This document shows positions 35,409 through 51,973 of a stretch of 64,000 bases of DNA, piece by piece. The translations under genes were made by a program, and so were the position numbers. Below the pieces are notes generated by a model. It ran no database searches, was not told the DNA's origin, and worked only from the letters and a program-made list of their open reading frames with translations. Source of the DNA: Nitrosomonas sp. (GTDB lineage Bacteria > Pseudomonadota > Gammaproteobacteria > Burkholderiales > Nitrosomonadaceae); NCBI GenBank assembly GCA_024281675.1, contig JAMXAG010000001.1:478575-542574 (forward strand), read 5' to 3'. How positions within the stretch are numbered: the stretch's first letter is position 1; every line of letters begins with the position of its first letter.

Positions 35409-37739
35409 TTAATAAATGCTGGTATAACCAGGAATGGTATTTTGCAACACCTGTAACGGATTGTTGCCGATACCCATCAAACCTTTCAATTCTAGCTGCA
35501 CAAAAAAAGCTGTGGTGGTGGTTTGTGTTGCGGTTGTTAAGCGTTGCATAACAACGCGAAAAGCCCAACAACACGAGTTATATTCAATGCCGGCAAGCCC
35601 AGCCAGAATCCTGTCGTCTTTCAGCGAGTAGTTGATGCGTGCGACGCCGTGCCAACCACCCACAATAGGCCATTGAAGCGATGAATCAACTTGTTCCAAA
35701 ACATTACGTGTATACCGATAACCAAAATTGAGAACTTTTCCTGGTTCGGGTTGATAACTTAGACCTGAACGAATTTTCTCTATTTCAAGCCCCTTTTCGT
35801 TCATCTGGATATTGGAATCAGTACTTAGTTGCGGTGTTAATCGTCCAGAAACGGCAGCAACAAAATCAGATTTTCCACTTGTGACCTGAGGGTCCAAAAA
35901 TTTTACTTTAGGGTCACTAAAATTAAATACTTGACCAACAGCGAGCCTGAGTCGTTCAATACCGGTTTCTTGTTCCACAAAACGAGATGTTAATGCCGCT
36001 GTCAAACGGTTTGCGTCATTAATACGGTCGCTTCCACTGAAGCGGTTTTCTTGCAGTATTTGCGCGAAATTAAAGTCATTGATTGCCGAATCAAAGACGG
36101 GAAGATGATTTTGATTGCGGTAGGGAACATACGCGTAGAATAATCGTGGTTCCAGTGTTTGTGTAAATTTGGTGCCACTCATTTGCATCGGCCGCTCAAA
36201 CGTTGTGCCGCTGTCTATGCTAAAAATCGGCAGAGCACGATCATGATTTTGTCCCTTATCTTCATGGCCCTGAACTGCATTCGACAAGCTGTAATGCGTG
36301 TAGTGGAAGCCAATTTTCGGTGTGATGTAACCATATTCATTTCGTAGCGGCATGCTGACGTACGGGTTAATTACGAAGCGGTGTCCATCGGGTAGAAATT
36401 TGGTGTCGGGCACTGTTCGCAATGCATGATGCTGAAAATTGCCCCAACTGCTATTCAAGCCAAACTCAAGTAAACCGCCCAAACTGGGTTTGTTAATGTC
36501 CAAGGATACGTAAGGTAGGCGTGAATAGGGTGCGGTAAATAACTGTAATCGATCCTGAATGGTTTGAAAACGCTGAACCAGTGCATTGAAACTGATCGTG
36601 CCATCCAGACCTAAACGACCGTTATAGGATGTGGCCGCCATTTGAGAAAGGTTGGTCATACTGGTTTGAGAAAGGTTGGGTGTCAATTCACGAAAATATC
36701 GATCATCGGAAACTCGATTGTAGTTAAGTATCCCTTGCCAGCCTTTGCCAAAGTTTTGTGTATGCGTAAACAAAATGCCCCAGCGTGTTTTGTTGGTATT
36801 GATATCCGTCGGGAGAATATCAAAAAGCAAATGCCCATTCATTTTTTCCCCCATATAGCGCAGCTCGTTGCTTAACATAAAACCACGCATGGTCATTACA
36901 CGGGGTGCTATGGTTGCGTCGATATTGGGTGCAATATTCAAATAAATGGGTAGCGCCGTATCAAATCCGGTGTGAACGTTATAACCCAATAAAGGGGCTA
37001 ACAAACCTGTTTTACGTTTACCGCTATAGGAAAAATCTAGCCATGGGGTATATAGGATCGGCGTGTCCTTGAACATAATACTAACGTTACGGGCTGTACC
37101 AACCTCATTTTTGTTATCAATTTTTAAATCACTCGCACGAATGTACCAATCGTGATTGCCTTCAGGGCAGGTGGTATAGCTGGTTTTTTCGATGCGGTAG
37201 TGATCTTTGCCTTCAAAGAATAGCATCTCTCCAGACCCGCGACCTTTACCGTTTTTTATATAGTATTTTGGTTCGGACATTTGTCCTTCATTGGTTTGCA
37301 AGTTGAGTTTAAGATGATCGCCTTTAATAATTTCCTTCACTCTATCTAAGTGGATGTTTCCTTCGACTTCGGTTTCTTCCGTGTTTTGAAAATACTTCAT
37401 GCGATCAGCAACTAGAATGTTGTCACCATGCCGCAATTCCGCATTTCCACTTGCTTCTACCTCTTGTTTGTAATATCCGGTAATATTGTCCGCTTCGATA
37501 TAAACCGGTTTTCTTTGTGGTTTAACGATTGCTTTTGATTTTTCATCTGATTCGGAAGACTGTGTGGGCGACAGTTCGTCACTTAGTCCAGTCAGTGGAA
37601 GCAGGCACAATAACAGCAAAACGCAACTATTCTGGATAAGCTGCCTATTGAAGAATACAGAGAAAATAGGATGGCAATCAGATAGGTTTTCAGACTTGAA
37701 CAAAGTAATTTTTCCTAATCCTGTTTTACTTTCAATCAA
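35409..37739 (-). CDS. lptD: LPS-assembly protein LptD
   Basis: 776 residues. An N-terminal region with a signal-like stretch (NSCVLLLLCLLPLTGLSDE, residues 37-56) is preceded by an unusually long leader, so the true start may be later. LptA/OstA-like domain at about 80-200 (VYIEADNITGYYKQEVEASGNAEL), then the LptD beta-barrel. A C-terminal Cys pair (YNSCCWAF) and an N-terminal Cys (TTCPEGNHDW) fit the disulfide pattern needed for maturation in E. coli. It inserts LPS in the outer leaflet. First gene of the lptD-surA-pdxA-rsmA operon. Confidence 0.94.
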   Translation of the reverse strand: MIESKTGLGKITLFKSENLSDCHPIFSVFFNRQLIQNSCVLLLLCLLPLTGLSDELSPTQSSESDEKSKAIVKPQRKPVYIEADNITGYYKQEVEASGNAELRHGDNILVADRMKYFQNTEETEVEGNIHLDRVKEIIKGDHLKLNLQTNEGQMSEPKYYIKNGKGRGSGEMLFFEGKDHYRIEKTSYTTCPEGNHDWYIRASDLKIDNKNEVGTARNVSIMFKDTPILYTPWLDFSYSGKRKTGLLAPLLGYNVHTGFDTALPIYLNIAPNIDATIAPRVMTMRGFMLSNELRYMGEKMNGHLLFDILPTDINTNKTRWGILFTHTQNFGKGWQGILNYNRVSDDRYFRELTPNLSQTSMTNLSQMAATSYNGRLGLDGTISFNALVQRFQTIQDRLQLFTAPYSRLPYVSLDINKPSLGGLLEFGLNSSWGNFQHHALRTVPDTKFLPDGHRFVINPYVSMPLRNEYGYITPKIGFHYTHYSLSNAVQGHEDKGQNHDRALPIFSIDSGTTFERPMQMSGTKFTQTLEPRLFYAYVPYRNQNHLPVFDSAINDFNFAQILQENRFSGSDRINDANRLTAALTSRFVEQETGIERLRLAVGQVFNFSDPKVKFLDPQVTSGKSDFVAAVSGRLTPQLSTDSNIQMNEKGLEIEKIRSGLSYQPEPGKVLNFGYRYTRNVLEQVDSSLQWPIVGGWHGVARINYSLKDDRILAGLAGIEYNSCCWAFRVVMQRLTTATQTTTTAFFVQLELKGLMGIGNNPLQVLQNTIPGYTSIY

Positions 37740-37994
37740 GGGGTTTTATCAGCGACTGAACAATTACACATTTGAGATGGAGTCCATCTAGTACCTTTAT
37801 GAGCTGGAGAGAATACATCAAAATTGATTCACATTCTAATTGTGGCAACTGGTCATCATTATAATTATAAATCCATATGCATTCATTAGGATATTGTTTA
37901 TTTACGCTTACTAATTATTAAGCTGTTTCTCTTTTGACGAATCGTCGGTTTTTCAACCATCAGTGTCCAGGATTAATCGCGTTATCGCACATCT

Positions 37995-39920
37995 ATGTTT
38001 GATATGGAATCAATTTTCTCTGAGGGCGGTGTTCTCTCAAATTACATCAACGAATTTCACGTGCGCCGTCAGCAATTGGAAATGGCGAATGCTATTGCCA
38101 ATGCGATTAACAAGCGGCAAATTCTGGTGGCAGAAGCGGGTACAGGAACGGGGAAAACACTCGCCTATCTAGTTCCTGCTTTGCTTAATGGCGGTAAAGT
38201 GATTATCTCCACAGGAACCAAAACACTACAAGACCAGCTTTTCAGAAGAGATATTCCAAACGTGCGAGCAGCACTAAAAATCCCAGTTACGATTGCCTTG
38301 TTGAAAGGTCGCGCTAATTATATCTGCCACTATCATTTGGAAAAGAGTTTACAGGATGATCGCGTCAGTTTTACGACACGTGAAGATATTCGACACTTGC
38401 AGTCCATCGAGCGTTATGCCCGTGTCAGCCAGACTGGCGATAAAAGTGAATTAAGTGAAATTCCGGAAAATGCTTCGATATGGCAGATGGTAACTTCAAC
38501 GCGAGACAATTGTCTCGGCGCAGAATGTCCGAACTTCAAGGATTGTTTTGTCATGGAGGCACGAAAACAAGCTTTATTAGCAGATGTCGTGGTGGTCAAT
38601 CATCATTTATTTTTTGCGGATGTGATGTTGCGTGATGAAGGCTTGAATGAATTACTACCGGCCTGCAATACGGTTATTTTTGATGAAGCGCACCAATTGC
38701 CAGAAACCGCCAGTCTATTTTTTGGTGAATCGGTTAGCACGGGTCAGTTATTAGAATTGGTACGTGACACTAAAATTGAAGCTGTTGAAGCAGCAAGAGA
38801 TTTTCAAGCACTTCCACTGGTTAACGCAGCTTTTGAAAAAAGCGTGCGCGATTTTCGTTTAGCAATTCCGGAAGAAAACATCCGTCTATCACAGTCGATG
38901 ATAGAAAAAAATAAGCGTTTCAACCACACGCTTAATGACGTCATTGATCAATTGCTTGAATTGGTTAAGCTTCTAGAAAATCAAGCCGAACGCTCAGAAG
39001 GATTGAAGAATTGCTGGCAGCGTGCGGCCGATCATTTGCATTTTATACAACGATGGCGTGACGAACAGTCATCACAAAACGAGATACGTTGGGTTGAGAT
39101 TTTTCATCAGGCCTTACAATTAAACATAACGCCATTATCCGTTGCAGATATTTTCCAAAAGCAGCTCAGCGCGACGGCAAGAGCTTGGATTTTTGTTTCT
39201 GCTACCTTGTCCGTTAAGCAGAATTTTACACATTACACCGCAGAAATGGGTTTGGCTTCGGCACAAACTGCATACTGGGAGAGTCCTTACAATTACCCCG
39301 AACAAGCGCTATTGTACGTGCCAACTGGATTGCCAGAACCTAATCATCCAAGCTATATCGATCGAGTGGTCCAGGCAGCCTTGCCGGTATTGCGTGCCAG
39401 TAGTGGCCGGGCTTTCTTTTTGTGCACCAGTTTGCGTGCGATGCAGCGTATTTATGAATTGCTGCAAGCTGCTGAAGCATTAGATTATCCTTTGTTGTTG
39501 CAAGGCCAAGGTTCACGCTCCTATATTTTAGAGAAATTTCGGGAATTGAAGAACGCTATCCTGATTGGCAGCCAGTCTTTTTGGGAAGGCGTTGATGTGC
39601 GAGGAGAAGCACTTTCGCTGGTCATTATTGATAAATTGCCCTTTGCGCCGCCTGATGATCCCGTGTTATCAGCTCGAATTGAAAAAATCAATCTTGAAGG
39701 GCGAAACGCTTTTATTGAATACCAATTACCGCGTGCGGTGATTAATTTAAAGCAAGGTGCGGGGCGTTTGATTCGAGATGAAACAGATCGGGGGGTATTG
39801 ATGATTTGTGACCCTCGTTTGATTACCAAAGCCTACGGCAAACAGATCTGGCAGAGCTTGCCACCCATGAGGCGTACACGCGAATTATCAGAAATTGAGA
39901 ATTTTTTTGCCAAAAGGTGA
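37995..39920 (+). CDS. DinG/YoaA-family ATP-dependent DNA helicase
   Basis: 641 residues. Walker A VAEAGTGTGKTLAY (about 50-63), the DEAH box VIFDEAHQLPE, and an iron-sulfur cluster Cys set between them (NYICHYH and CLGAECPNFKDCF) place it in the XPD/DinG superfamily 2 group. C-terminal motif V/VI is GSQSFWEGVDVRGEALSLVIIDKLPF ... QGAGRLIRD, read as separate parts. It most resembles YoaA rather than the longer DinG. Roles in repair of stalled forks are family knowledge. Divergent from lptD. Confidence 0.92.
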   Translation: MFDMESIFSEGGVLSNYINEFHVRRQQLEMANAIANAINKRQILVAEAGTGTGKTLAYLVPALLNGGKVIISTGTKTLQDQLFRRDIPNVRAALKIPVTIALLKGRANYICHYHLEKSLQDDRVSFTTREDIRHLQSIERYARVSQTGDKSELSEIPENASIWQMVTSTRDNCLGAECPNFKDCFVMEARKQALLADVVVVNHHLFFADVMLRDEGLNELLPACNTVIFDEAHQLPETASLFFGESVSTGQLLELVRDTKIEAVEAARDFQALPLVNAAFEKSVRDFRLAIPEENIRLSQSMIEKNKRFNHTLNDVIDQLLELVKLLENQAERSEGLKNCWQRAADHLHFIQRWRDEQSSQNEIRWVEIFHQALQLNITPLSVADIFQKQLSATARAWIFVSATLSVKQNFTHYTAEMGLASAQTAYWESPYNYPEQALLYVPTGLPEPNHPSYIDRVVQAALPVLRASSGRAFFLCTSLRAMQRIYELLQAAEALDYPLLLQGQGSRSYILEKFRELKNAILIGSQSFWEGVDVRGEALSLVIIDKLPFAPPDDPVLSARIEKINLEGRNAFIEYQLPRAVINLKQGAGRLIRDETDRGVLMICDPRLITKAYGKQIWQSLPPMRRTRELSEIENFFAKR

Positions 39921-39988
39921 TTGTGTTACCATCATGGCTATTTAATGAGGCTGTTGGCAGATTAAACGGGAATAATTCGAATACTATA

Positions 39989-40411
39989 ATGGATCAGAAA
40001 AATAAACCTCGGAAGAGGATGTTAATGCTGGATATGTTAAGCCTATTAGGGTTGCTGCTTTCCGTTACTTCTGCGGCCTATGCGCAGCAGCATCCTTTAG
40101 CAGGGGGTGGCAGTGCTAAGGATTTTATTGTGGCGAGTGTGTTGAATGCTGGAAGAATGCATCAATTCATTGAGCGATGTGGGGCTTCAAATGAGGTATT
40201 GTCCGCATACAAAGCCAGTTTTGATGCGAACATGGCAGGTGGTGAGAAAACCTATCGCGAGCTTGGCATCGATATTCAAGCTGAGTTTGATAAGGGGCGC
40301 GGGGAAGGGGATAGCGAGTTTGCTAAAATTGCCCATGATCAGAACCGCGCTGCAATGTGTAACGAAGCCATTGGTGCCGTTACACAGCTGGTTAATAAAA
40401 GCCAAAAATAA
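39989..40411 (+). CDS. small secreted protein of unknown function
   Basis: 140 residues from ATG 39989 (MDQKNKPRKRMLMLDMLSLLGLLLSVTSAAYAQQ), giving a basic n-region, hydrophobic core and AYA-QQ cleavage. A second start at ATG 40025 has a better SD (GGAAGAGG) but a weaker n-region. The mature part of about 105 residues has two Cys (ERCGAS and AAMCNEA) that may pair. Family not recognised. Close behind the helicase gene but probably unrelated to it. Confidence 0.65.
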   Translation: MDQKNKPRKRMLMLDMLSLLGLLLSVTSAAYAQQHPLAGGGSAKDFIVASVLNAGRMHQFIERCGASNEVLSAYKASFDANMAGGEKTYRELGIDIQAEFDKGRGEGDSEFAKIAHDQNRAAMCNEAIGAVTQLVNKSQK

Positions 40412-40478
40412 AAGCCAAAAATTCTGCTGCTGTTTTTTTATACCATTAAGAAATGCTTAAGGAAATTAAGGAAATCGA

Positions 40479-40814
40479 ATGAAAGCGACTATTGCCGAGC
40501 TTTTAAATAAAATTCCAGGTAAAGCGAGCGCCGAATGGCCGATGGGTGAACCATTTGCGCTGGCATTTGCGCATGGTTCCATGTCTGTTGAGATTTATAC
40601 CCCCAAAGCAACCGATATCCAAACGCCCCATGATCAGGATGAGTTATATTTTATTCACTCTGGCCAAGGTGAATTGGTTATTGCCGGAGAGCGGCATTCG
40701 TTTGCACCGGGAATGGTGTTTTTTGTTGCGGCACATGTTGAACATCGGTTTGAAAACTTTTCGGATGATTTCATCGCATGGGTAGTTTTTTGGGGGCCTA
40801 AGGGTGGCGAATAG
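40479..40814 (+). CDS. small cupin-domain protein
   Basis: 111 residues forming a single cupin. Motif 1, HDQDELYFIHSGQGELVIAG, supplies metal-ligand residues, and motif 2, PGMVFFVAAHVEHRFEN, supplies the final His. The ligand set H-x-x-x-E/H and H is consistent with metal binding, but the substrate is unknown. No secretion signal. It is followed 43 bp later by an ArsC/Spx-like gene. Confidence 0.85.
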   Translation: MKATIAELLNKIPGKASAEWPMGEPFALAFAHGSMSVEIYTPKATDIQTPHDQDELYFIHSGQGELVIAGERHSFAPGMVFFVAAHVEHRFENFSDDFIAWVVFWGPKGGE

Positions 40815-40857
40815 CTTCGATCGATCAACGGATTCCTGATTGCTTACTAACTTCGCT

Positions 40858-41214
40858 ATGATTATTCTGTTATACGGTTACAAAAAATGTACGACTTGTC
40901 GCAAAGCCGAGCAGCATTTGCAGCAACATAAGTTGGCGTACGAATTTATCGATATTACCGAATGTCCGCCCACGGCGGTTCAATTGGCTAAAATCGTAGC
41001 ACTAGCCAATGTATTGCCGCAAAAAATGTTCAACACCAGCGGCGAGCAGTATCGCCAGCTCAATATTAAACAACTATTTCCTACACTGACCCATCAAGAA
41101 ATGTTGAATCTGCTAGAAACGAATGGCCGTTTGATCAAACGACCATTGTTGACGGATGGAAAGCGTGCAACGGTAGGTTTTAATGCGGAACAGTTTTTAG
41201 CGACCTGGCGGTGA
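40858..41214 (+). CDS. ArsC/Spx-family thioredoxin-fold protein (YffB-like)
   Basis: 118 residues from ATG 40858. MIILLYGYKKCTTCRKAEQHL carries the redox motif C-x2-C (CTTC), and the C-terminal RPLLTDGKRATVGFN matches the conserved cis-Pro and substrate loop of the ArsC/Spx group. It lacks arsenic-resistance neighbours. YffB-type members are glutathione-dependent reductases of uncertain role. Arsenate reduction is possible but not supported by context. Confidence 0.85.
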   Translation: MIILLYGYKKCTTCRKAEQHLQQHKLAYEFIDITECPPTAVQLAKIVALANVLPQKMFNTSGEQYRQLNIKQLFPTLTHQEMLNLLETNGRLIKRPLLTDGKRATVGFNAEQFLATWR

Positions 41215-41285: not shown

Positions 41286-44147
41286 ATGGCAAATAGCCAC
41301 GATCGTTTATCGGTATCCAAATCTAGCGCATCCGAATCTGGCGTAACCAAACCTGTATTCATCAGTTACAGCCGTACCGATCGCATAGCCTGTATTGCCT
41401 TGCGCCAAGGATTAACCGGGGCGGGTTTGAATGTGTTTCAGGATGAAGAGCAAATCCGGGTGGGCGAGCAATGGCTTACGCGCTTAGAAGAAACATTGCA
41501 GCAATGCAGCGCGTTTGTGCTGTTGATCGGGCGCGATGGCGTTCAGCGTTGGGTCGGTGCTGAAGCACAGGTTGCATTGAGTCGGTATTTTTCGCCGCAT
41601 GACGATGCACTGCGTCTGCCGATTTTTCCAATTTTATTGGATGAAGCCAAGCCCGAGTCGCTGCCTCCTTTTCTGGCGTTGTTTCAGGCCGAAAAATGGT
41701 CACCCGAATCGCCGATATCTGCAAAGCTGATTGAAGCGATCAAAGCACGCACGATTTGCATTGATGACCAACCATTGTTTGAAGGTTGTCCTTTCCTGGG
41801 ACTCAGCGCTTTCGGTAAACAGGATGCAAAGTTATTTTTTGGGCGGCGCAAAGAGACGCTTGAAGCTCTCGCTACTTTGGGTAATCAGCGGCTAAACAAT
41901 CCCGATAGCCCTCACCAACCTCGTGGATCGAACTATATTCGTTGGTTACAAATCGAAGGCAACAGCGGTTCGGGAAAATCGTCATTGGTCAATGCCGGTA
42001 TGTTGCCCATGATCGAACAAGGCGCACTGTGGTCATGCACAGGTATCGAGCACTGGCGGATACTGGGACCGATGATGCCGGGTCAGAATCCGCTCGAGAA
42101 ATTGGCCGAGATCCTTGAACAGGGGTTGATCGAAGACCCTGCCAAGCGGGATATGGGGACACGGTTTGAACGACTGGCGGCAAAAGAAACGGCGCTTGCT
42201 TCAACCCTGAAGAATTTCAAGCAACCAGGCGGCGCATTCTTGCTCGTCGTCGATCAGTTTGAAGAGTTGTTTACCTTTGCCGGAGATGCCGCACGAAAGC
42301 AATTCGATGCACTGTTGGCGTATGCACTTCAAGACCCGGAATGTCCGTTGTTTCTGATTAGCACCGTGCGTGCCGATTTTCTGGAACGGTTTGAATACCT
42401 ACCTCGTTTGCAAGCCATTTACAATCACCGCTGTAAACGTTATTTTTTGCCACTCATCTCCGAGCAAGGCTTGCGTGAAATTATTGAACAACCTGCTCGC
42501 TTAGCCGGATTGGATGTCAGTGATGTGACGACAGCCATATTGGCGGATACCAAGGATGAAGTGGGGGCGCTGCCACTCGTAGAAAATGGTTTGTTTACCT
42601 TGTGGAAAGAATTGCAAGATCACCCGTCAGGCCGTAAAAAGCTCAGTGGTGATTTCTATCGTCAGCAAAACGGCATTGCCGGCATGCTCAGCCAACAAGC
42701 CGATGCGCTATTGGAACGCGTGGGGCAAAAGCACCCCAAAGGCAAGCATGCGGCTCTGGAATTGTTGTTGGCATTGACAAGCATCAATACGGATGGCCGC
42801 AACACGCGTCGGCGCATTACCCGTGAAGAAGCCATAGCCGTTGCGGGGGAGGGTGATGACAAACTGGGCGAACAAGTGGTACGCATGCTGTCGGGTGAAC
42901 GTGCTGTGGATGTTCCGAGCGAGAGTCGCGACCCCGTACTACGGTTAGTTACACTCAAGCAAGAAGGTGAGCATCAGCAACAGTATGTCGACTTGATTCA
43001 CGAAACGCTGATTCGGGCGCGCGCGCTGCAGGATCAAAAACTGGAAAAACTGACCGGTTACTGGCCAACGCTCTACGATTACATCGAGAAAAACCGCGAT
43101 CGCGACCTTTATCGCCAAGAACTTGTACACGAAAGTAAACGCTGGCAGCAAAGCACAGGCTTAAAGCGTTTATGGCATTTGCGGTATGTCGATCTGAAAA
43201 AATATCGTGCATTGCGCATTCCTCCCAATACCACCGAAAGCCGCTTTTTGGCATGGAGCCGGCGTGCAAGAGTTATGCTGATGGGCCTGCTGGTAATGTT
43301 CGTTGCGTATGCCGCAGAATCCATTGTTTGGCTGCAGCAGCATGACCTGCCCTTTGATATGATCGTGACGCTACAACGTTTTCGCTTGGGCTATGCACCG
43401 CTTCCGGATTTGACAGAAAAGCCCATTCCTCCCGGCTCTTTCAATATGGGTGAGCAGGATGCAGCATTTATCGAACGCTTGGGTGAACTGGAAAAGCATT
43501 TTGGCGTGCCAGGTAAGCCGATCGAAATATCTCAGGCTTTTTACCTGGGAAAAACGGAAGTCACCTATGATCAGTATGATTATTATGTCTGGCAGCAACA
43601 TCGTTCCGGCGACACAGACATTAAGTTTCCGAATACCGCCCAAGGCGGGCGCGGCAACCGTCCAGTGGTGAATGTCAACTTGTTTGATGCAATGGGCTAT
43701 GTCGCCTGGCTGGGCAAACAAAACGGACTAAACTGCCGCCTGCCGAAGGAAACGGAATGGGAATATGCTGCCCGGGCGGGGACGGCTACAGCCTATTCCT
43801 GGGGCGATGAAGTCGGTAGCAACAAGGCTAATTGTAATGGTTGCGACAGCCCATGGGACACTAAAGAAGCAGCACCAGTGGGTAGTTTTGCCGCAAATCC
43901 GTTCGGTTTGTATGATATGTCGGGTAACGTTTGGGAGTGGACATGCTCAAGCTGGCGAGAGCGGTTTGATGGCAATGAGCAAGACTGTAATGATGATACG
44001 ACAGACGAACAATTTCGCGTGCTGCGCGGTGGTTCCTGGTTCAATGATCCGGACTTCGTGCGTGCGTCGGCGCGTTACTACGCCCCTCCGGTCAATCGTA
44101 ACTACTTTCTCGGTTTTCGGGTGTTGTGTTCGTCCCCCATCGAATAG
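41286..44147 (+). CDS. DGR target protein: TIR - STAND NTPase - TM - FGE-sulfatase (C-type lectin fold)
   Basis: 953 residues. TIR domain about 22-155 (PVFISYSRTD; Glu93 in RWVGAEAQVAL sits where the NADase Glu of catalytic TIRs lies). nSTAND-type NTPase about 165-600, with Walker A GNSGSGKSS (225-233) and Walker B FLLVVDQFEELF (317-328). One membrane helix about 661-680 (MLMGLLVMFVAYAAESIVW). C-terminal FGE-sulfatase/formylglycine-enzyme-like C-type lectin domain about 705-953 (PGSFNMGEQ, LGKTEVTYDQYD, RLPKETEWEYAARAG, LYDMSGNVWEWT, LRGGSW, FLGFRV). Its last 43 codons are the variable repeat of a diversity-generating retroelement. Read as a receptor whose ligand site is diversified and whose TIR end signals or kills (inference). 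A DGR target with a conflict-type effector domain is the best reading; plain sulfatase-modifying activity is unlikely. Confidence 0.93.
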   Translation: MANSHDRLSVSKSSASESGVTKPVFISYSRTDRIACIALRQGLTGAGLNVFQDEEQIRVGEQWLTRLEETLQQCSAFVLLIGRDGVQRWVGAEAQVALSRYFSPHDDALRLPIFPILLDEAKPESLPPFLALFQAEKWSPESPISAKLIEAIKARTICIDDQPLFEGCPFLGLSAFGKQDAKLFFGRRKETLEALATLGNQRLNNPDSPHQPRGSNYIRWLQIEGNSGSGKSSLVNAGMLPMIEQGALWSCTGIEHWRILGPMMPGQNPLEKLAEILEQGLIEDPAKRDMGTRFERLAAKETALASTLKNFKQPGGAFLLVVDQFEELFTFAGDAARKQFDALLAYALQDPECPLFLISTVRADFLERFEYLPRLQAIYNHRCKRYFLPLISEQGLREIIEQPARLAGLDVSDVTTAILADTKDEVGALPLVENGLFTLWKELQDHPSGRKKLSGDFYRQQNGIAGMLSQQADALLERVGQKHPKGKHAALELLLALTSINTDGRNTRRRITREEAIAVAGEGDDKLGEQVVRMLSGERAVDVPSESRDPVLRLVTLKQEGEHQQQYVDLIHETLIRARALQDQKLEKLTGYWPTLYDYIEKNRDRDLYRQELVHESKRWQQSTGLKRLWHLRYVDLKKYRALRIPPNTTESRFLAWSRRARVMLMGLLVMFVAYAAESIVWLQQHDLPFDMIVTLQRFRLGYAPLPDLTEKPIPPGSFNMGEQDAAFIERLGELEKHFGVPGKPIEISQAFYLGKTEVTYDQYDYYVWQQHRSGDTDIKFPNTAQGGRGNRPVVNVNLFDAMGYVAWLGKQNGLNCRLPKETEWEYAARAGTATAYSWGDEVGSNKANCNGCDSPWDTKEAAPVGSFAANPFGLYDMSGNVWEWTCSSWRERFDGNEQDCNDDTTDEQFRVLRGGSWFNDPDFVRASARYYAPPVNRNYFLGFRVLCSSPIE
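44016..44144 (+). repeat. DGR variable repeat (VR)
   Basis: 129 bp at the 3' end of the target gene, starting at CGCGTGCTGCGC and ending at the last sense codon. It aligns without gaps to TR 44300-44428. There are 16 differing positions, and at each the TR base is A (changed to T, G or C in VR). The affected codons alter residues in the SWFNDPDF, RYYAPPV and NYF segments, the ligand-face positions in C-type-lectin DGR targets. Conserved ends flank the variable core. Confidence 0.95.
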
Positions 44148-44197
44148 CGGATCGCTGGCGCGCTGATCGCTGAAGCACTGGTTTGCTGTTCACTGAT

Positions 44198-44226
44198 AGC
44201 GCCGCGTAGCGGCGCTTTTGTTTTTT
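44198..44226 (+). terminator. GC-rich hairpin with T-tract after VR
   Basis: AGCGCCGC (44198-44205), loop GTA, GCGGCGCT (44209-44216), then TTTTGTTTTTT. A perfect 8-bp stem and a T-rich tail make it a good rho-independent terminator for the target gene. DGRs commonly carry a short GC-rich hairpin or cruciform just downstream of VR that supports retrohoming, so it may serve both purposes. Confidence 0.85.
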
Positions 44227-44253
44227 GCATCTCATTCAGTAAGCTGGCATACT
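44225..44253 (+). promoter_or_regulatory. possible promoter for the TR RNA
   Basis: TTGCAT (44225-44230), a 17-bp spacer and CATACT (44248-44253) resemble a weak sigma-70 promoter upstream of TR at 44300. The hairpin at 44198-44226 should stop read-through from the target, so TR RNA needs its own start. The match is poor in the -35 box, so this is only a candidate. Confidence 0.25.
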
Positions 44254-44299
44254 TTACTGGCAGAATGCAGTTTTCTGTGGGGTTCCCTGAGATGAGGTC

Positions 44300-44428
44300 C
44301 GCGTGCTGCGCGGTGGTTCCTGGAACAATAATCCAGACAACGTGCGTGCGTCGGCGCGTAACAACAACCATCCGGACAATCGTAACAACAATCTCGGTTT
44401 TCGGGTGTTGTGTTCGTCCCACATCGAA
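44300..44428 (+). repeat. DGR template repeat (TR)
   Basis: 129-bp non-coding copy of the target 3' end. It has the AAY-rich pattern typical of templates: conceptual translation would give GGSWNNNPDNVRASARNNN then HPDNRNNNLGFRV. The asparagine codons are the mutagenesis-prone positions. It lies between the target terminator and the Avd gene. The repeat begins at CGCGTG and ends ATCGAA; sequence outside differs from the target gene. Confidence 0.95.
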
Positions 44429-44449
44429 ATCTGCTCCGCTGCCGGAATT

Positions 44450-44473
44450 GCCAGCCGGTTACGGCTTGCTGGC
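44450..44473 (+). other. hairpin in spacer just 3' of TR
   Basis: GCCAGC (44450-44455) pairs with GCTGGC (44468-44473), and an alternative inner AGCCG/CGGCT pairing around GTTA is also possible. It begins 22 bp after TR. In studied DGRs the RNA just 3' of the template is structured and needed to prime cDNA synthesis; this position fits that role (inference). Confidence 0.5.
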
Positions 44474-44551
44474 CGAGGCCGGAGATGGATAGATGGCGCA
44501 GGTGAATCCTGTCCGCATGTGGCAGTATCGCGTCGGGCGCATATTAAAACT

Positions 44552-44583
44552 GAGCGCCACCTGGATTCGCTCCCGTGGCGCTC
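44552..44583 (-). terminator. hairpin between TR and the Avd gene, probable Avd terminator
   Basis: GAGCGCCAC (44552-44560) and GTGGCGCTC (44575-44583) form a perfect 9-bp stem with a 14-base loop. On the minus strand it is followed by AGTTTTAAT, so it could terminate the Avd transcript 7 bp after its stop. On the plus strand it would be a structural element at the 3' end of the TR RNA. Confidence 0.6.
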
Positions 44584-44590
44584 ACCTATC

Positions 44591-44935
44591 TTAGCGGCGG
44601 GTTTGTTTAATCCAACCACCCAACAATTTTCCGATTTCTGCAACCTGGGTGCTGACATGAATATACTGACCATCATTCAGCCAATGCCATTGATGTGCGA
44701 GTCGCAAATACAGCCGGAGGCAATTTAGCGCGGCATCTGCATCCTGTAAAGCGGTATTGCGACGGGCATCACGAGTGCTTTGTGCCGTAAAAACCGCTTC
44801 CTGGCAATCCAAAGTAGCATTCATCAAGCGTAATGTTATGCTTTGCCGGTATGCTTTTGGGAAATGTTCTACCTTTGGTAACAACCAACTCAATAAATCA
44901 AATAATCGTGTCAGTAATATGAGGTCTTGTGTCAT
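44591..44935 (-). CDS. avd: Avd-like DGR accessory protein (four-helix bundle)
   Basis: 114 residues, helical and basic. Its core LFDLLSWLLPKVEHFPKAYRQSITLRLMNATLDC matches the Avd / 23S-rRNA-intervening-protein four-helix family, especially the FPKxYRxxxxxR pattern, and GQYIHVSTQVAEIGKLLGGWI matches the C-terminal helix. In known systems Avd forms a pentameric ring that binds the DGR reverse transcriptase and the template RNA. Unusually, it lies on the opposite strand from TR and RT. Its ATG (44935) overlaps the RT start by 17 bp in head-to-head orientation. Confidence 0.85.
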   Translation of the reverse strand: MTQDLILLTRLFDLLSWLLPKVEHFPKAYRQSITLRLMNATLDCQEAVFTAQSTRDARRNTALQDADAALNCLRLYLRLAHQWHWLNDGQYIHVSTQVAEIGKLLGGWIKQTRR

Positions 44936-46082
44936 CGATAATCTCCACGATTGTAGTCAATCTTTTCAGAAATTGTGTAGCTTGCCGCACCTGTTGCAGG
45001 CATTTCAGCGGGCAGCGATGGGGAAACGTCACAAGATTGATGTTGCTGCGTTTGAGTTTCAGCTCATTGATCATTTGTTGCAACTACATGAAGAACTGGA
45101 AAAAGGAAACTATATTCCTGGTCCTTATACGCATTTTTATATTCATGAACCGAAACGACGTAAAATCAGCGCAGCCATATTCCGGGATCGGGTGGTGCAT
45201 CATGCATTGTGTGGTGTTATTGAACCGCGTTTTGAACAAGTATTTATTCCAGATAGCTATGCCAATCGGATAGGTAAAGGAACTCATCGTGCAATTGATC
45301 GCTTGCAGCATTTTTCTCGGAAATATCGCTATGTCCTGCGCTGCGATATTCGCCAACATTTTGCATCGATTGATCATGCCATATTGCTTGAAAGTCTACG
45401 CAAGCTTATCCCAGAACCTGATATCGTGGCGTTAATCGAAAAAGTAATTTCCGGTGGTTGCGATGCTTTGGCGGATGAGTACCAAATGGTGTGGTTCCCA
45501 GGTGATGATTTGCTTGCCGTTTGCAGGCCACGTGGATTACCGATTGGTAATTTGACATCGCAGTTTTGGTCGAATTGCTACCTGCATGGCTTTGATTTAT
45601 TTGTTAAACGTGAGCTGGGCTGCAAGGCTTATCTACGTTATGTCGATGATTTTGCACTGTTCGCAGATCACAAGGAATTACTCTGGGAATGGAAGGCTGC
45701 ATTAAAATCACGGCTGGCTAAGCTACGTTTGACTATTCATGATCAGAAAGCACAAGTGTTACCTTCGGCAAACGGTATTCCTTGGTTGGGTTTTATGATT
45801 TATCGTGAATTCCGTAAAATAAAAGCCCGTAAGGTTAGGTACGCCACACATCATTTGGATCATCGTTATGAAGCCTATCGTACAGGGAAAATTTCTTTTG
45901 CAGGGTTTGATGCCAGCATACAGGGTTGGATCAATCATGTACGTTTTGCTGATTCATGGGGGTTGCGTCGGCATGTGTTTTCATCTTTTCTACTCAAGCC
46001 AAGTGATATGAGGATAAAAGAGCCGTCAAATACGAAGAGATTTTTGCACGGGAAGAATCGCCTTGAGAGTCAAAGATGGTAA
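44919..46082 (+). CDS. DGR reverse transcriptase
   Basis: 387 residues from ATG 44919 (MRSCVIDNLHDCSQSFQKLC). The frame is open upstream to 44757, but that segment is antisense to the Avd gene and unlike the family. N-terminal motif LCSLPHLLQAFQRAAMGKR (19-37), RT1-2 KRRKISAAIFRDRVVHHAL, catalytic motif 3 CDIRQHFASID (142-152), RGLPIGNLTSQ (205-215) with the IGxxxSQ signature that separates DGR RTs from group II intron RTs (QGxxxSP), and YVDD (241-244). It copies TR RNA into adenine-mutagenised cDNA that replaces VR. No maturase or endonuclease domain. Confidence 0.95.
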   Translation: MRSCVIDNLHDCSQSFQKLCSLPHLLQAFQRAAMGKRHKIDVAAFEFQLIDHLLQLHEELEKGNYIPGPYTHFYIHEPKRRKISAAIFRDRVVHHALCGVIEPRFEQVFIPDSYANRIGKGTHRAIDRLQHFSRKYRYVLRCDIRQHFASIDHAILLESLRKLIPEPDIVALIEKVISGGCDALADEYQMVWFPGDDLLAVCRPRGLPIGNLTSQFWSNCYLHGFDLFVKRELGCKAYLRYVDDFALFADHKELLWEWKAALKSRLAKLRLTIHDQKAQVLPSANGIPWLGFMIYREFRKIKARKVRYATHHLDHRYEAYRTGKISFAGFDASIQGWINHVRFADSWGLRRHVFSSFLLKPSDMRIKEPSNTKRFLHGKNRLESQRW

Positions 46083-46420: not shown

Positions 46421-48934
46421 TTGAATAATCAACGCTCTATTATCCGAAAGGTGGCCGTATTAGGCGCTGGTGTCATGGGCGCGCAAATCGCTGCACACTT
46501 GGTTAATGCCAATATTGAAACGCTCTTGTTTGAATTGCCGGGAGATGAAAAAAACCCGAATGCCAATGTGCTCAAGGCGATAGAAAAACTGAACAAGCAA
46601 GAGCCTGCGCCTTTATCGATCAAAAGCAAAGCAACGTTCATTCGTCCCGCCAACTATGAACAACATTTAGGATTACTTAAAGAGTGCGATTTGGTGATAG
46701 AAGCGATCGCCGAACGTATGGATTGGAAACGTGATCTTTATACTAAAGTCGCACCCCATTTAGGCGAGCAAACCATTTTTGCGTCCAACACTTCGGGACT
46801 TTCAATCAACCAATTGGCTGAAGCTTTCCCAGAAACGTTGCGGCATCGTTTTTGTGGTGTGCATTTTTTTAATCCGCCGCGTTATATGCATTTGGTGGAA
46901 CTCATTCCGTGTCAGTCGAGTGATGCCATTATGCTGGATCATTTGGAAGCTTTTCTGGTGACTTACCTCGGGAAAGGCATTGTTCGCGCCAAAGATACGC
47001 CCAATTTTATTGCTAACCGCATTGGTGTGTTTTCATTATTGGCGACCATGCATCATGCGAAAGAGTTTGGTTTTGGCTTCGATGGAGTGGATGCGTTGAC
47101 CGGCACTTTGATTGGGCGACCGAAAAGCGCTACGTTTCGCACCGCTGATGTGGTGGGGCTCGATACTTTGGCGCATGTGGTTAATACCATGCGCGATACG
47201 TTACCCCATGATCCTTGGCACCGTTATTTCACAGTACCCGACTGGATGCAAGGTTTGATTGATGCCGGTGCGCTGGGGGAAAAGGTTAAGCGCGGCGTTT
47301 ATCAAAAAATAAACGGTGAGATTCATGTGCTTGATTTAGCCACACAAAGTTATCGATTGTCGGAAGGTAACGTGGATGAAGACATCAAGCACTTGTTGAA
47401 ATTTAGTGGTTCAGTAGAAAAGTTTGTTGTATTACGGAGTGCAGAGAAGCAACAGGCTCAGTTTCTCTGGGCGGTTTTCCGGGATTTATTCCACTATTGT
47501 GCGGTACAACTGGAAGATATCGCAGATAACGCTAGAGATCTTGATTTGGCGGTGAGGTGGGGATTTGGTTGGAACCAAGGGCCTTTTGAAATATGGCAAG
47601 CGGCAGGTTGGAAGCAACTTGTTGAATGGATTGAGCAAGATATCGCCTCGGGCAAAAGCATGAGCTCTACACCGTTACCGCAATGGGTGCATAAGATCGC
47701 GCAAAGTAACATGCAAAGTATACATACGCCGCAAGGTTCTTATGCGCCGGCTTTCGATCAATTGCAGCCTCGTTCAAGATTATCGGTTTATCGGCGTCAG
47801 CTTTTTCCGGATCGCCTGATCGGGGAAACCGCGGAGTACGGTAAAACAATTTTTGAAAACGATGCGATTCGAATGTGGCATCTGGATGACGACGATCAAG
47901 TCGCCATTCTGAGTTTCAACACCAAAATGCATACCATCGGCATTGAAGTATTGCAAAGTGTGCAACAAGCCATTCAAGAAGCCGAGCAGAACTGGCGTGC
48001 CTTAGTGATCTGGCAAACAGAGCCGCCGTTTTCTGCGGGCGCTAATTTACAAAAAGCGACTGAAAAACCGAAGCCATCAGGCCACCGACCTGCGCCGCCG
48101 TCTGTGTTTCAACAGTTTCTCAGAAAATTCATGAAAACCACCCAGGCGACGGTACTAAAAGCTGCGCGTGAGCTAGACCTGGCCGATGCACTGATGGCCA
48201 GTAAGCTGGCTGAAGTCAATCACATGATTCAGCAGTTCCAGCAAACATCGCAAGCGTTGCGTTATTCTATGATCCCAACCGTTGCAGCCGTTGATGGATT
48301 GGCTTTGGGAGGCGGGTGCGAATTTGTCATGCATTGCGACCATGCCGTAGCAACGATGGAAAGTTATATCGGCTTGGTTGAGGCAGGTGTTGGTTTGTTG
48401 CCAGCCGGTGGTGGATGTAAGGAATTTGCCCTCAAGGCCGCACGGAATGCAAAAGATGGCGACCCTTTTCCGTTGTTAAAACACTATTTTCAAACGGTAG
48501 CGATGGCCGAATTAGCGAAAAGCGCGGAGCAAGCAAAAGAATTCGAATATTTGCGTCGCTCCGATACCATTGTGATGAATCGTTTTGAATTGCTACATGT
48601 CGCTAAAGCGCAAGCGTTAGCGATGGCAGAAGCTGGTTACCGTCCACCATTGCACGCACGCGAAATTCCGGTTGCAGGCAGTACTGGCATTGCAACCATC
48701 CAAGCACAGCTCGTTAACTTACTCGAAGGCCAGTTTATTTCCGAACACGATTATTTGATCGGTAAAAAGATTGCGCAGGTCATGTGTGGTGGTGATTTGA
48801 CCCCTGGCAGCTTGGTGGATGAGGATTGGTTTCTTGAGTTGGAGCGTGCTGCCTTCATGGAGTTGATAGCAACCGAAAAAACACAGCAACGTATCGAACA
48901 TACCCTCAAAACCGGTAAACCATTAAGAAATTGA
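46421..48934 (+). CDS. 3-hydroxyacyl-CoA dehydrogenase / enoyl-CoA hydratase fusion
   Basis: 837 residues, TTG start with SD AGGAGA. Domain order is dehydrogenase first: Rossmann AVLGAGVMGAQIAAHL (residues 12-27), catalytic GVHFFNPP and the C-terminal 3HCDH domains. A crotonase-type hydratase then follows at about 480-720 (AGANLQ, DGLALGGGCEFVMHCD, GLVEAGVGLLPAGGG). This is the reverse of FadB/FadJ, and the order matches the FadN-type fusion. Second and third steps of fatty acid beta-oxidation. The thiolase gene follows 28 bp later. Confidence 0.93.
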   Translation: MNNQRSIIRKVAVLGAGVMGAQIAAHLVNANIETLLFELPGDEKNPNANVLKAIEKLNKQEPAPLSIKSKATFIRPANYEQHLGLLKECDLVIEAIAERMDWKRDLYTKVAPHLGEQTIFASNTSGLSINQLAEAFPETLRHRFCGVHFFNPPRYMHLVELIPCQSSDAIMLDHLEAFLVTYLGKGIVRAKDTPNFIANRIGVFSLLATMHHAKEFGFGFDGVDALTGTLIGRPKSATFRTADVVGLDTLAHVVNTMRDTLPHDPWHRYFTVPDWMQGLIDAGALGEKVKRGVYQKINGEIHVLDLATQSYRLSEGNVDEDIKHLLKFSGSVEKFVVLRSAEKQQAQFLWAVFRDLFHYCAVQLEDIADNARDLDLAVRWGFGWNQGPFEIWQAAGWKQLVEWIEQDIASGKSMSSTPLPQWVHKIAQSNMQSIHTPQGSYAPAFDQLQPRSRLSVYRRQLFPDRLIGETAEYGKTIFENDAIRMWHLDDDDQVAILSFNTKMHTIGIEVLQSVQQAIQEAEQNWRALVIWQTEPPFSAGANLQKATEKPKPSGHRPAPPSVFQQFLRKFMKTTQATVLKAARELDLADALMASKLAEVNHMIQQFQQTSQALRYSMIPTVAAVDGLALGGGCEFVMHCDHAVATMESYIGLVEAGVGLLPAGGGCKEFALKAARNAKDGDPFPLLKHYFQTVAMAELAKSAEQAKEFEYLRRSDTIVMNRFELLHVAKAQALAMAEAGYRPPLHAREIPVAGSTGIATIQAQLVNLLEGQFISEHDYLIGKKIAQVMCGGDLTPGSLVDEDWFLELERAAFMELIATEKTQQRIEHTLKTGKPLRN

Positions 48935-48962
48935 TTCATCTTCCCGATTCACGGAGACTTTC

Positions 48963-50162
48963 ATGAGCAAACAAACTGAAGAAGCCTATATCGTAGCTGC
49001 TACCCGTACGCCGGTTGGTAAAGCGCCGCGAGGTATGTTTAAAAATGTACGCCCGGACGATATGCTGGTGCATGTGTTGCAAGCAGTCATGAAGCAATGT
49101 GAAGGGCTCGATCCGGCTGCAATTGATGATGTGATCGTCGGTTGCGCCATGCCGGAGGCTGAACAAGGAATCAATGTCGCGCGTGTTGCACTATTGTTGG
49201 CTGGTTTCCCGGATAGTGTTTCAGGTATGACCATTAACCGATTCTGTGCTTCAGGCTTGCAATCGGTGGCTTTGGCTGCGGATCGAATTCGCCTTGGGGA
49301 AGCCGATGTCATGATCGCAGCTGGTACCGAAAGTATGAGCATGGTACCTATGATGGGTAATAAAGTGGCCATTAACCCGGCTACTTTTACACACCAAGAG
49401 CATGTTGCAATTGCGTATGGTATGGGTATGACCGGTGAAAAAGTCGCCGAGCAATGGCATATCTCCCGCGAGGCCCAGGATGAATTTGCTTTGACAAGTC
49501 ACAGGCGTGCATTGCAAGCCATCGATTCGGGTGAATTTAAGCAGGAAATATCTCCTTATCAAGTAGTGGAAAAAAGGCCAGATTTAGAAGCTGACAAAGT
49601 TCTCGAGCAAGTATCGTTGAAAGATACTGACGAAGGGCCGCGTGCGGATACCAGCCTTGAGGTGTTGGCGAAATTACGGCCGGTTTTTTCCGCCAAAGGT
49701 TCGGTGACGGCAGGAAACAGTTCGCAAATGTCCGATGGTGCGGGTGCGGTTGTACTGATGAACGAGAAAGCGATGCAACGTTTTAATTTATCACCTTTGG
49801 CCCGTTTTATTGGTTTTTCAGTGGCTGGCGTGCCACCTGAAATTATGGGTGTTGGCCCGATCAAAGCTATTCCTAAAGTGCTGGCGCAAACCAACATTAA
49901 ACAGGATGACATAGATTGGATCGAACTGAATGAAGCGTTTGCAGCACAAAGTCTTGCGGTCATTCATGATTTAGCATTAGACCGTGAAAAAGTCAATCCT
50001 TTGGGGGGGGCAATTGCGTTAGGTCATCCATTGGGTGCGACGGGTGCTATCCGGGTGGCAACTTTATTGCATGGTTTGCGCCGTCATCATAAAAAATACG
50101 GCATGGTGACGATGTGTATTGGAAGTGGCATGGGTGCTGCTGGCGTGTTTGAATCGTTGTAG
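48963..50162 (+). CDS. fadA: acetyl-CoA C-acyltransferase (thiolase)
   Basis: Releases acetyl-CoA in the last step of beta-oxidation. 399 residues. The active-site Cys is in NRFCASGLQSV, GNSSQMSDGAGAV is the middle signature, the catalytic His is in GGAIALGHPLGATGA, and the second Cys is in CIGSGMGAAGVF. It is coupled by position with the dehydrogenase/hydratase fusion. A biosynthetic thiolase (PhaA type) is possible in principle, but the partner gene argues for beta-oxidation. Confidence 0.93.
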   Translation: MSKQTEEAYIVAATRTPVGKAPRGMFKNVRPDDMLVHVLQAVMKQCEGLDPAAIDDVIVGCAMPEAEQGINVARVALLLAGFPDSVSGMTINRFCASGLQSVALAADRIRLGEADVMIAAGTESMSMVPMMGNKVAINPATFTHQEHVAIAYGMGMTGEKVAEQWHISREAQDEFALTSHRRALQAIDSGEFKQEISPYQVVEKRPDLEADKVLEQVSLKDTDEGPRADTSLEVLAKLRPVFSAKGSVTAGNSSQMSDGAGAVVLMNEKAMQRFNLSPLARFIGFSVAGVPPEIMGVGPIKAIPKVLAQTNIKQDDIDWIELNEAFAAQSLAVIHDLALDREKVNPLGGAIALGHPLGATGAIRVATLLHGLRRHHKKYGMVTMCIGSGMGAAGVFESL

Positions 50163-50201
50163 TTTTATATTCGTTTTTCAAGAATCTTGTGAGTATTGAA
50201 A

Positions 50202-51806
50202 ATGAATGCTAATTTAATTTGTTTTGGTTCATTAGCCATGCTGTTATTCATCCTGTCAGGATGTGGAAGTATTCCATATAAGGCAAGCACGAACAGTAAA
50301 ATATCGGAAGGGGAAAAATCAACGTCACAAGCAAGCTTTGAATTACGCAATGAGCGCATCAAGAAAGTAGGCGATGAGCGCCTTGAGGTGGATTGTAATC
50401 CCAAGCAACATAAAAAAAATCTGGTGCTATTAGCACTCTCAGGTGGCGGTTCACGGGCGGCATTGCTATCGGGTTTGTCGATGGACGAGATGAAGAATAT
50501 CCAGGCCAATGGAAGTAGTTATGACATTTTATCAGAAGTGGATTTAATATCCTCAGTTTCCGGCGGATCATTGGCAGCGGCATATTATGCAAGCTCTGGA
50601 GAAACAGAAGCTAAAAATGAGTGCGACAAAGCGGTTTCCGAACGGGAATGGAGTAAAGAAAACGTTATCGAGTTAATGAGTAAGAATTACATTCTGCCGT
50701 GGATAGGAAATTGGTTTTGGCCTGATAATATATTCCATTATTGGCTCTCGACGTATGATCGTACTGACATCATGGCTCAAACATTCGCCGATAATCTATT
50801 TGACAGGAAGAGCAATGGGTTAGATCTTAAATTCTCAGAGCTCAATCCTGCGCGTCCAAATTTAATTATTAATGCTACCAAGGGAAGTTCCAATTTTACT
50901 CAAGAACAATTAAATGAAAGCTCATTTGGACAGGCTTTTACTTTTTCGGCTGAAGATTTTGGAAAAATTTGCTCATCAATAGATGAATACGATTTGTCTC
51001 GAGGAGTGATGGCATCGGCTACCTTTCCTGGTGTGTTTAATTTCATGACCTTAGAAAATCATTGCCTAGGAAATAAAAATCAATATGTGCACGTATTTGA
51101 TGGGGGAAATGCAGACAATTTGGGGCTCACCAGCATCAAGCGTGCAATTTGGAGTCTACATAGAAACAAACAATTAAAAGATTATGAGAAAATCACAGTC
51201 ATTTTAGTGGATGCTTATGTAAATTCGAGTGGTGTAGATGAAAAATACAATGACCCGCGTCCATGGTATGGCTTTATTGTTGATTTAAATTTTATTGTTG
51301 CCACAGATTCGTTATTGGGAAAAAATAGAGAAAGACTTCTAACGGAATTTGAAACAAAAAACATCTTTCCATATAGCAGAATGGAAAATCAGGGGATGGC
51401 AGATTCTAACAAAAGAAAAATAACAGCCTGTAACAGTTTTTTTAATTGGAAAGGGACTGTTGATGCGGCCAAATACTGCAATGATTCCGAATTTTGGAAA
51501 GATCTAAATAAAGACATTCATCAGAAAATGCAGTTTGTACACATTACATTTGATGAAACACCTAACCCCGATTTGCAGCGTCAATTGAACAATATTGCAA
51601 CAAATTTTAGATTAAATGATGACAGGGATGATAAGACGCGTTTAACAAACAAAGAGGCAATTATCTGTGCAGTCCCGGCGCTATTTGGACGTGATAGCAA
51701 GTGTCCATATAATGAAGAAATTTATAGTGCATCAGAAAATCTTAAGGAAAAATGGGGCAATGTTGTAAAGGATTTTAATAGCTCCACTAATAAAAGATCA
51801 CATTAA
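50202..51806 (+). CDS. patatin-like phospholipase family lipoprotein
   Basis: 534 residues from ATG 50202; TTG 50196 is in frame but has no advantage. The N-terminus is a lipoprotein signal with lipobox LSGC (FILSGCGS). Patatin motifs: the oxyanion stretch LALSGGGSRAALLSG, nucleophile segment SSVSGGSLAAAYY, and the Asp of the dyad in VFDGGNADNLGL. The usual GxSxG reads SVSGG here, a variant seen in bacterial patatin-like proteins. Probably a periplasmic or outer-membrane-attached lipid hydrolase, substrate unknown. Confidence 0.85.
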   Translation: MNANLICFGSLAMLLFILSGCGSIPYKASTNSKISEGEKSTSQASFELRNERIKKVGDERLEVDCNPKQHKKNLVLLALSGGGSRAALLSGLSMDEMKNIQANGSSYDILSEVDLISSVSGGSLAAAYYASSGETEAKNECDKAVSEREWSKENVIELMSKNYILPWIGNWFWPDNIFHYWLSTYDRTDIMAQTFADNLFDRKSNGLDLKFSELNPARPNLIINATKGSSNFTQEQLNESSFGQAFTFSAEDFGKICSSIDEYDLSRGVMASATFPGVFNFMTLENHCLGNKNQYVHVFDGGNADNLGLTSIKRAIWSLHRNKQLKDYEKITVILVDAYVNSSGVDEKYNDPRPWYGFIVDLNFIVATDSLLGKNRERLLTEFETKNIFPYSRMENQGMADSNKRKITACNSFFNWKGTVDAAKYCNDSEFWKDLNKDIHQKMQFVHITFDETPNPDLQRQLNNIATNFRLNDDRDDKTRLTNKEAIICAVPALFGRDSKCPYNEEIYSASENLKEKWGNVVKDFNSSTNKRSH

Positions 51807-51973
51807 AAAACAACGCGTTTTGCAAATTTTCCACATTATTTCTTCAACAATGTGATTTTTCTCACAGATTTTGAAATGAGCGCTCTTTACAGTTGCATCG
51901 CAATCTAAGTTTAATTTGTGACTTGAATTGCTGCCTTTTTGGGCGGAAATTGTATTTCAAAAGGAGATAAATC

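Follow-up and report, generated by a model that had tools for sequence, protein, structure and literature searches.

A stretch of 64,000 nucleotides from Nitrosomonas sp. (assembly GCA_024281675.1, contig JAMXAG010000001.1, positions 478,575 to 542,574 of the forward strand; hereafter the window, in whose coordinates all positions are given) comes from a genome of 2.81 Mb and contains a compact cassette built around a reverse transcriptase (RT) gene. An open reading frame (ORF) on the plus strand (41286..44147) encodes a target protein of 953 residues, and its final 43 codons ahead of the stop form a variable repeat (VR, 44016..44144). Downstream on the same strand lie a phased array of YTG units (44155..44195), a hairpin (44198..44216), a template repeat (TR, 44300..44428) and a structured spacer (Sp) RNA (44429..44590). 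The avd gene (114 residues, 44591..44935) is encoded on the minus strand, and the RT gene (387 residues from the ATG at 44919, 44919..46082) returns to the plus strand. A preliminary description of this DNA had proposed a complete diversity-generating retroelement (DGR) at 44016-46082, and VR, TR, Avd and RT were indeed all found, making it very probable that this segment is the core of a cellular DGR whose substrate is the C-terminal sensor domain of a TIR-STAND protein.

The repeat search returned exactly the pair described beforehand, 44016-44144 and 44300-44428 (129 nt, 88% identical). Careful alignment also bore out that the differences are confined to adenines: 16 of the 129 positions differ, and all 16 fall on the 30 adenines of the TR (hypergeometric p 1.4e-12), comprising ten A>T, three A>G and three A>C substitutions. 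One of them, at 44137 near the 3' end, resembles the difference between the initiation of mutagenic homing (IMH) sequence and IMH*, with C in 6/6 VRs from four Nitrosomonas species and A in 3/3 TRs. Since this difference is fixed in the compared VRs, it probably did not arise by mutagenesis, which leaves about 15 differences as mutagenic. The VRs of different Nitrosomonas species differ from one another mainly at TR adenines, and relatives from two Nitrosomonas species had 16/20, 14/17, 17/22 and 13/15 of their TR/VR differences at A. The AAY codon pattern noted earlier was present as well, AAC or AAT accounting for 11 of the 43 TR codons; 17 of the 43 carry A at codon position 1 or 2, and no TR codon can reach a stop through an adenine change.

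Pfam analysis divided the target into TIR_2 at residues 24-126 (4.1e-16), nSTAND1 at residues 169-623 (3.6e-73), with a Walker-A-like GNSGSGKS at residue 225, and an FGE-sulfatase/C-type-lectin-like domain at residues 714-946 (1.3e-48) that spans the VR. By these domain matches the target is a TIR-nSTAND1-FGE protein of predicted immune-like character, whose VR lies within the predicted C-type-lectin/FGE fold at the putative sensor end. Dore et al. 2024 (PMC10907252) reported cellular DGRs of clade 5 that act on conflict-system proteins, with STAND proteins as the targets in clade 5D. Compared by target architecture alone, the window resembles clade 5D in its STAND NTPase target and C-terminal lectin-fold/FGE VR, and some clade 5D targets also carry an N-terminal TIR. 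The hosts that the study gives for multiple related DGRs include Nitrosomonas and Accumulibacter. The DGR as such is therefore not new, because DGRs on STAND, TIR and FGE targets, Nitrosomonas hosts included, are known. The accessible text of the same study differs from the present analysis in mentioning neither inversion of avd nor phased repeats, and the word Avd is absent from its main text.

The sole Pfam match of the RT was RVT_1 (PF00078, E 7.3e-19), and both motifs of the preliminary description were present, IGNLTSQ at residue 209 and YVDD at residue 241 (45639-45650). The (I)GxxxSQ motif is a mark of DGR RTs. An SQ motif has been discussed elsewhere (PMC3521204). The closest solved structure was the BPP-1 DGR RT (8ub7_A, E 8.3e-37), followed by a group II RT at 1.6e-12. 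In a tree of 53 chosen RTs, all 46 DGR RTs formed one clade (support 0.825) apart from seven group II intron RTs of the genus Nitrosomonas, which under the root used did not themselves form a clade; the window RT was thereby placed with the DGR RTs, as had been supposed. Outside the tree were the truncated RT of locus L042 and the RTs of L031 (5863-7059) and L041 (5968-6614), each split over two frames through decay or assembly error. The RT is under purifying selection, with pN 0.14 vs pS 0.86 (the latter saturated) against the related locus L026. The ATG at 44919, which overlaps the avd start by 17 nt, is the likely start codon; since homology to relatives begins only at residue 13, the true start may lie downstream of it.

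A scan of genome contigs for the window RT lineage gave 17 loci. Their hosts are Nitrosomonas (three loci, on the same contigs as the genus genomes G037, G012 and G004), Accumulibacter, Rhodocyclaceae and other Betaproteobacteria, Chromatiaceae, Leucothrix, another gammaproteobacterium, Planctomycetota, Chloroflexi-type metagenome-assembled genomes (MAGs), Terriglobia and one further bacterium. Fifteen lineage RTs formed one clade (support 1.0) within a larger group that includes cyanobacterial DGRs and a second DGR of the same genome (L004, described below). Within the genus, the window RT was matched in 15 of 85 genomes at E<=1e-20, and four of those 15 reached at least 77% identity over at least 337 aligned residues, the own genome being counted both times. 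No viral home of the lineage emerged from the viral_contigs set, where 175 pattern matches yielded 0 confirmed members.

The gene earlier called Avd-like matched Pfam bAvd at 68.3 bits (cut-off 40, E 9.8e-19), with the correction that it lies on the minus strand, head-to-head with the RT and heading towards TR-Sp. The PHROG Avd family (7.3e-25) and the BPP-1 Avd structure (4dwl, E 2e-4) matched it too, and a ratio of nonsynonymous to synonymous rates (dN/dS) of 0.041 against L026 indicates purifying selection. Avd ran opposite to the RT in 16/16 lineage loci having an Avd call, whereas it was co-stranded with the RT in 32 of 34 loci outside the lineage. The two exceptions are L018, which resembles a fragment of the window RT lineage (63% identical), and L055, which is separate. 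Left out of the count for want of an Avd call were lineage loci L029 and L042 and 14 others, including three group II introns. Inverted avd marks one RT lineage spread over several phyla.

About 160 nt downstream of the TR are conserved throughout the lineage. An alignment of 11 of the 15 TR-bearing lineage loci (L035, L038, L039 and L040 being too diverged for alignment by eye) revealed three helices, which correspond to window positions 44450-44459/44464-44473, 44511-44521/44529-44538 and 44552-44565/44571-44583 after conversion of the alignment columns. In this one alignment, used both for structure prediction and for pair counting, 95.6% of cells were paired and 20 of 31 pairs showed changes on both sides. 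The covariation score was equalled in 0/500 shuffles (1/500 for further pair types), and shifting the helix partners by 1-3 columns cut the paired cells to 34-44%. The Sp terminates in a strong hairpin (44552-44583, 123 nt past the TR) just ahead of the stop codon of avd, which converges on it. A T-run follows this hairpin on the plus strand in several relatives; the window has only ACCTATCTT. In BPP-1, a folded spacer after the TR serves both to bring in the RT-Avd complex and to prime synthesis of the cDNA (PMC12875486). Considering that avd runs towards TR-Sp from the other strand, TR-Sp may be a self-contained, free-standing transcript of about 290 nt.

Two other readings of the cassette have to be weighed. 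If the RT belonged to a group II intron or another non-DGR element, it would lie beside a duplicated gene end merely by chance, and the NCBIfam group II RT model does hit it at 7.8e-39; its 133.8 bits stay under the curated cut-off of 300 for group II membership. The RT tree, the PDB ranking and that sub-cut-off score ruled out a group II intron RT, Avd and the Sp RNA speak in the same direction, and the adenine-only differences together with the PDB ranking and the tree refute the idea, whose residual probability is negligible. A dead relic, with a frozen VR and an RT that has ceased to diversify the target, is less remote. Of the 14 other lineage loci with a TR, nine carry a second target with an inverted VR beyond the RT, some of the rest stopping at contig ends; in the window locus this second target is missing. 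Decayed relatives exist in the genus: a Nitrosomonas communis MAG (L025/L029) has an RT of the lineage and a target with VR and neither TR nor Avd on its 5,062-base contig, indicating that the cassette can decay, and pieces survive in genome G003. These observations weigh against a complete and working DGR, as do the group II model hit and the NCBIfam Avd model, which reached 79.0 bits, one under its cut-off of 80. Against a relic stand the intactness of every open frame, the purifying selection on RT and Avd, the TR codons that cannot reach a stop via adenines and the retention of Sp, array and hairpin. A relic is thus improbable, and the intact genes and purifying selection suggest that the DGR is in a working state.

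The array after the VR consists of CTG at 44155, 44163, 44170, 44178, 44186 and 44193 (steps 8, 7, 8, 8 and 7) and is the only chain of at least six of any trinucleotide at 7/8-nt steps on either strand of the window. It is followed by the inverted repeat AGCGCCGC-GTA-GCGGCGCT and a T-rich stretch, an arrangement that is also terminator-like. With its 3-nt loop and its distance of about 53 nt from the VR, this hairpin falls outside the ranges of phage DGR hairpins, which have 7-10 bp stems, 4-nt GRNA loops and distances of 4-34 bp (Guo et al., PMC3240598). Inspection by eye showed hairpins behind most of the lineage VRs, and CNCTG units recur downstream of these VRs at regular distances. For 25 VRs from 15 loci, CTG occurred 4.72 times per 60 nt after the VR vs 1.13 after the TR and 1.15 in the background, and 78 of 93 successive CTG distances after the VR were 7 or 8.

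Motif-free autocorrelation of the 60 nt after the VR (47 loci, one VR per locus) peaked at lags 7, 8, 15 and 23 (z 11.2, 9.1, 8.1 and 4.5). In a deduplicated set of 40 loci, where L026 represents the window on account of their similarity, z was 9.9 at lag 7 and 7.7 at lag 8. The 11 loci of the own lineage gave 5.5, 2.5 and 6.2 at lags 7, 8 and 15, and the 29 of other lineages 7.2 and 8.2 at lags 7 and 8. No 7/8 phasing was detected after the TR (z -0.6 and -0.2, 36 loci) or after 152 other stop codons of the same loci (z -1.3 and +0.4). A chain test over 70 nt was significant (p<0.05) for 33 of 73 VRs (lineage 17/25, others 16/48) vs 0/46 TR-downstream stretches; the signal begins where the VR stops and has died away by about +50. 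Viral contigs found with a phage RT alignment (the best 80 of 569 matches) contained a TR/VR pair in 68 of 80 loci, and over 40 nt their 32 deduplicated VR-downstream stretches gave z 11.2 at lag 7 and 4.5 at lag 8, compared with -0.2 and 0.5 for 31 TR-downstream stretches. A frequent phage form, judged by eye, is repeated ATCTG followed by a hairpin such as GCGATAGC. The accessible text of open-access DGR papers (PMC10907252, PMC7159879, PMC12875486, PMC6642488, PMC3240598, PMC8144416, PMC7517822, PMC3521204 and PMC10053308) contained neither phased repeats after the VR nor inversion of avd. One of these papers sorts 948 DGRs into 122 patterns by the order and orientation of TR, VR and RT, with Avd not among the criteria given there (PMC6642488). 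The phased array appears to be a target-site element common in Avd-type DGRs that was not found described.

The distribution of the array was compared with that of Avd, Avd-less DGRs being added through an ANMV-1 RT search (the best 80 of 111 matches). Among 222 loci examined, 174 had a TR/VR pair of at least 80 nt, and deduplication left 75 loci with Avd, of which 52 are viral, 9 belong to the lineage and 14 come from other cells or plasmids, and 11 loci without. Over the 50 nt after the VR, lags 7 and 8 reached z 11.5 and 10.1 in the former vs -0.4 and 2.1 in the latter. Chains of at least three TG units followed the VR in 48/75 Avd-containing vs 0/11 Avd-less loci, and followed the TR in 2/75 of the Avd-containing loci; chains of at least four units were present in 36/75 after the VR and 0/75 after the TR. 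The unit around these chains is about WWHTYTG. Of 20,000 random draws of 11 Avd-containing loci, 27 came down to the mean of the Avd-less loci, and a Mann-Whitney test gave p 0.007. A tie between the array and the presence of Avd is only suggestive, because the Avd-less loci represent few lineages, the absence of Avd was taken from an iterated profile and the flanks were short. As a separate observation, Avd-less DGRs (L014, L015, L021 and others) have GC-rich inverted repeats after the VR and no YTG array.

A close known system, on which target-site work has been done, is the DGR of Bordetella phage BPP-1 (mtd/avd/TR/brt), which shares with the window an RT with Avd, a folded spacer after the TR, adenine-specific changes and a hairpin after the VR (PMC3240598, PMC12875486). 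It differs in that its avd is co-oriented with brt and lies upstream of the TR, its hairpin is 4 nt past the VR without an array downstream of the VR, and its target is a phage tail protein. A 21-bp IMH with five mismatches to the TR sets the direction of transfer in BPP-1 (Guo et al., PMC3240598). Counted from the VR end, this IMH has TG at -19, -17, -9 and -2, with steps of 8 and 7 separating the last three; the BPP-1 TR keeps TG at -19, -17 and -2 and lacks it at -9, two of the five mismatches abolishing the middle TG. Although a single case, this loss fits the array as a direction signal.

With recruitment and priming by Sp, error-prone copying and VR replacement borrowed from the BPP-1 work, the RT with Avd would bind and copy the TR-Sp RNA, errors would arise at template adenines, and the mutated cDNA would replace the VR. 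How VR and TR are discriminated and what guides the cDNA into the target are incompletely understood (PMC12875486). The VR, unlike the TR, has the array and hairpin immediately 3' of the shared sequence, and the balance is about even that these mark the VR and not the TR as recipient, probably via an Avd-containing complex. An opened target strand would present its YTG triplets to a binding oligomer, with Avd as the leading candidate; in the PDB, the BPP-1 complexes have five Avd chains in each entry, 45 over 9 entries. The cDNA has been proposed to use single-stranded target in lagging-strand synthesis (PMC12875486), which would fit binding of a single-stranded array. With confidence somewhat short of even, we propose that the YTG array (3-7 units at 7-/8-nt steps) is a widespread undescribed target-site element of Avd-type DGRs, with the IMH directionality signal as a special case of it. 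It would be a candidate single-stranded target for the Avd oligomer, with about one YTG per subunit, and BPP-1 would hide a three-unit version in its 21-bp IMH, the middle unit being destroyed in its TR.

Several points weigh against this proposal. Taken singly, 40 of the 73 VRs were not significant at 0.05 in the chain test, the eight phage-like loci alone gave only z 1.9 at lag 7 and 2.9 at lag 8, and the viral TR-downstream stretches show a weak lag-14 excess (z 3.3). The viral group was new sequence, picked after arrays had been noticed by eye in its members, so that the choice was not blind. The link to Avd was prompted by five Avd-less loci (L014, L015, L016, L021 and L071), four of which sit among the 11, and the weak lag-8 excess of these 11 is accompanied by z values of 2.5 and 2.4 at lags 10 and 14. 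No chain of at least three TG units was present in 27 of the 75 Avd-containing loci, among them 3/9 lineage loci and 12/23 loci from the ANMV-1 RT search, so the array is not universal; three of the 27, the cyanobacterial L060, L063 and L064, have CTTT-type units instead. In addition, target orientation was reported as not critical in BPP-1 (Guo et al., PMC3240598). It is conceivable, on balance doubtful, that the array, though a genuine target element of DGRs, is recognised by a host factor or acts as a DNA or RNA structure without Avd: it occurs across phyla and in phages, and BPP-1 has Avd without an array downstream of its VR. The absence of TG chains from all Avd-less loci argues otherwise, within the few lineages that these represent. 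Rather unlikely is that the array merely accompanies target gene 3' ends (stops in all frames, terminator approach or slippage) with no role in homing. Its place just past the stop codon and ahead of a terminator-like hairpin and the three of six window units reading CTGA agree with such a by-product; yet the remaining half of the units are not TGA, the other stop-downstream stretches had no excess at lags 7 and 8, and the phasing is kept with different units (CTG, TTTG and ATCTG) in unrelated DGRs.

Two further systems were compared. Cyanobacterial DGRs on plasmids of Fischerella, Nostoc, Anabaena, Acaryochloris and Microcystis have FGE-family targets, Avd, RT and 7/8-nt phased units after the VR, and differ in having Avd on the RT strand in 5/5 and units of CTTT, not CTG. 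The TAACTGA repeats of Beggiatoaceae are direct heptamers containing CTG (MacGregor 2015, PMC4679880). They are a single fixed sequence mostly located just upstream of start codons, and the terms 'reverse transcriptase' and 'diversity' are absent from the main text of that report; identity of the array with these repeats was rejected.

The preliminary description had assigned the hypermutation machinery to one protein. This holds for the window TR, which hit a single VR genome-wide, with no further VR in the whole genome and a third match that is the TR of a second DGR; it does not hold for the genome, since that second complete DGR lies 215 kb away and has two targets. In this DGR (L004, 18-5954; contig C1 about 303017-308953), a target with VR, avd and RT share one strand, the TR overlaps the end of the RT frame, and the second target lies downstream. 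Its TR/VR differences fall at A in 15/15 and 16/17 cases, and TTTG-type phased units follow both VRs. ORFs upstream of the target are not the same in L023, indicating that the cassette probably moved. Additional TR-Sp copies in the genus were observed in G045 (L076/L091), where the contig ends and a piece of avd lies on the other strand, and, in decayed form, in G003 (L078/L092, L018). A small ORF between RT and target in L025 (2902-3303) looks by eye like a REP-associated transposase. The neighbours at 35409-41214 and 46421-52741 are, by eye, presumably ordinary chromosomal genes (helicase-, cupin-, fatty-acid-oxidation-, patatin- and calcium-repeat-like). Rfam scanning at gathering thresholds and a tRNA scan gave no match in the window.

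By analogy with proposals for related DGRs, the purpose of the cassette would be a varied sensor repertoire coupled to the TIR effector. An active DGR would allow an ammonia oxidiser to alter the sensor end of a TIR-STAND protein at as many as 26 adenines, counted as the TR adenines ahead of the invariant 3' part. The inverted-avd lineage would represent a DGR whose template RNA may stand alone, with avd running against it. If the YTG array is indeed a widespread target-site element, it would explain why the VR and not the TR is overwritten, would offer a concrete and mutable handle on target choice, and could help to find remote targets.

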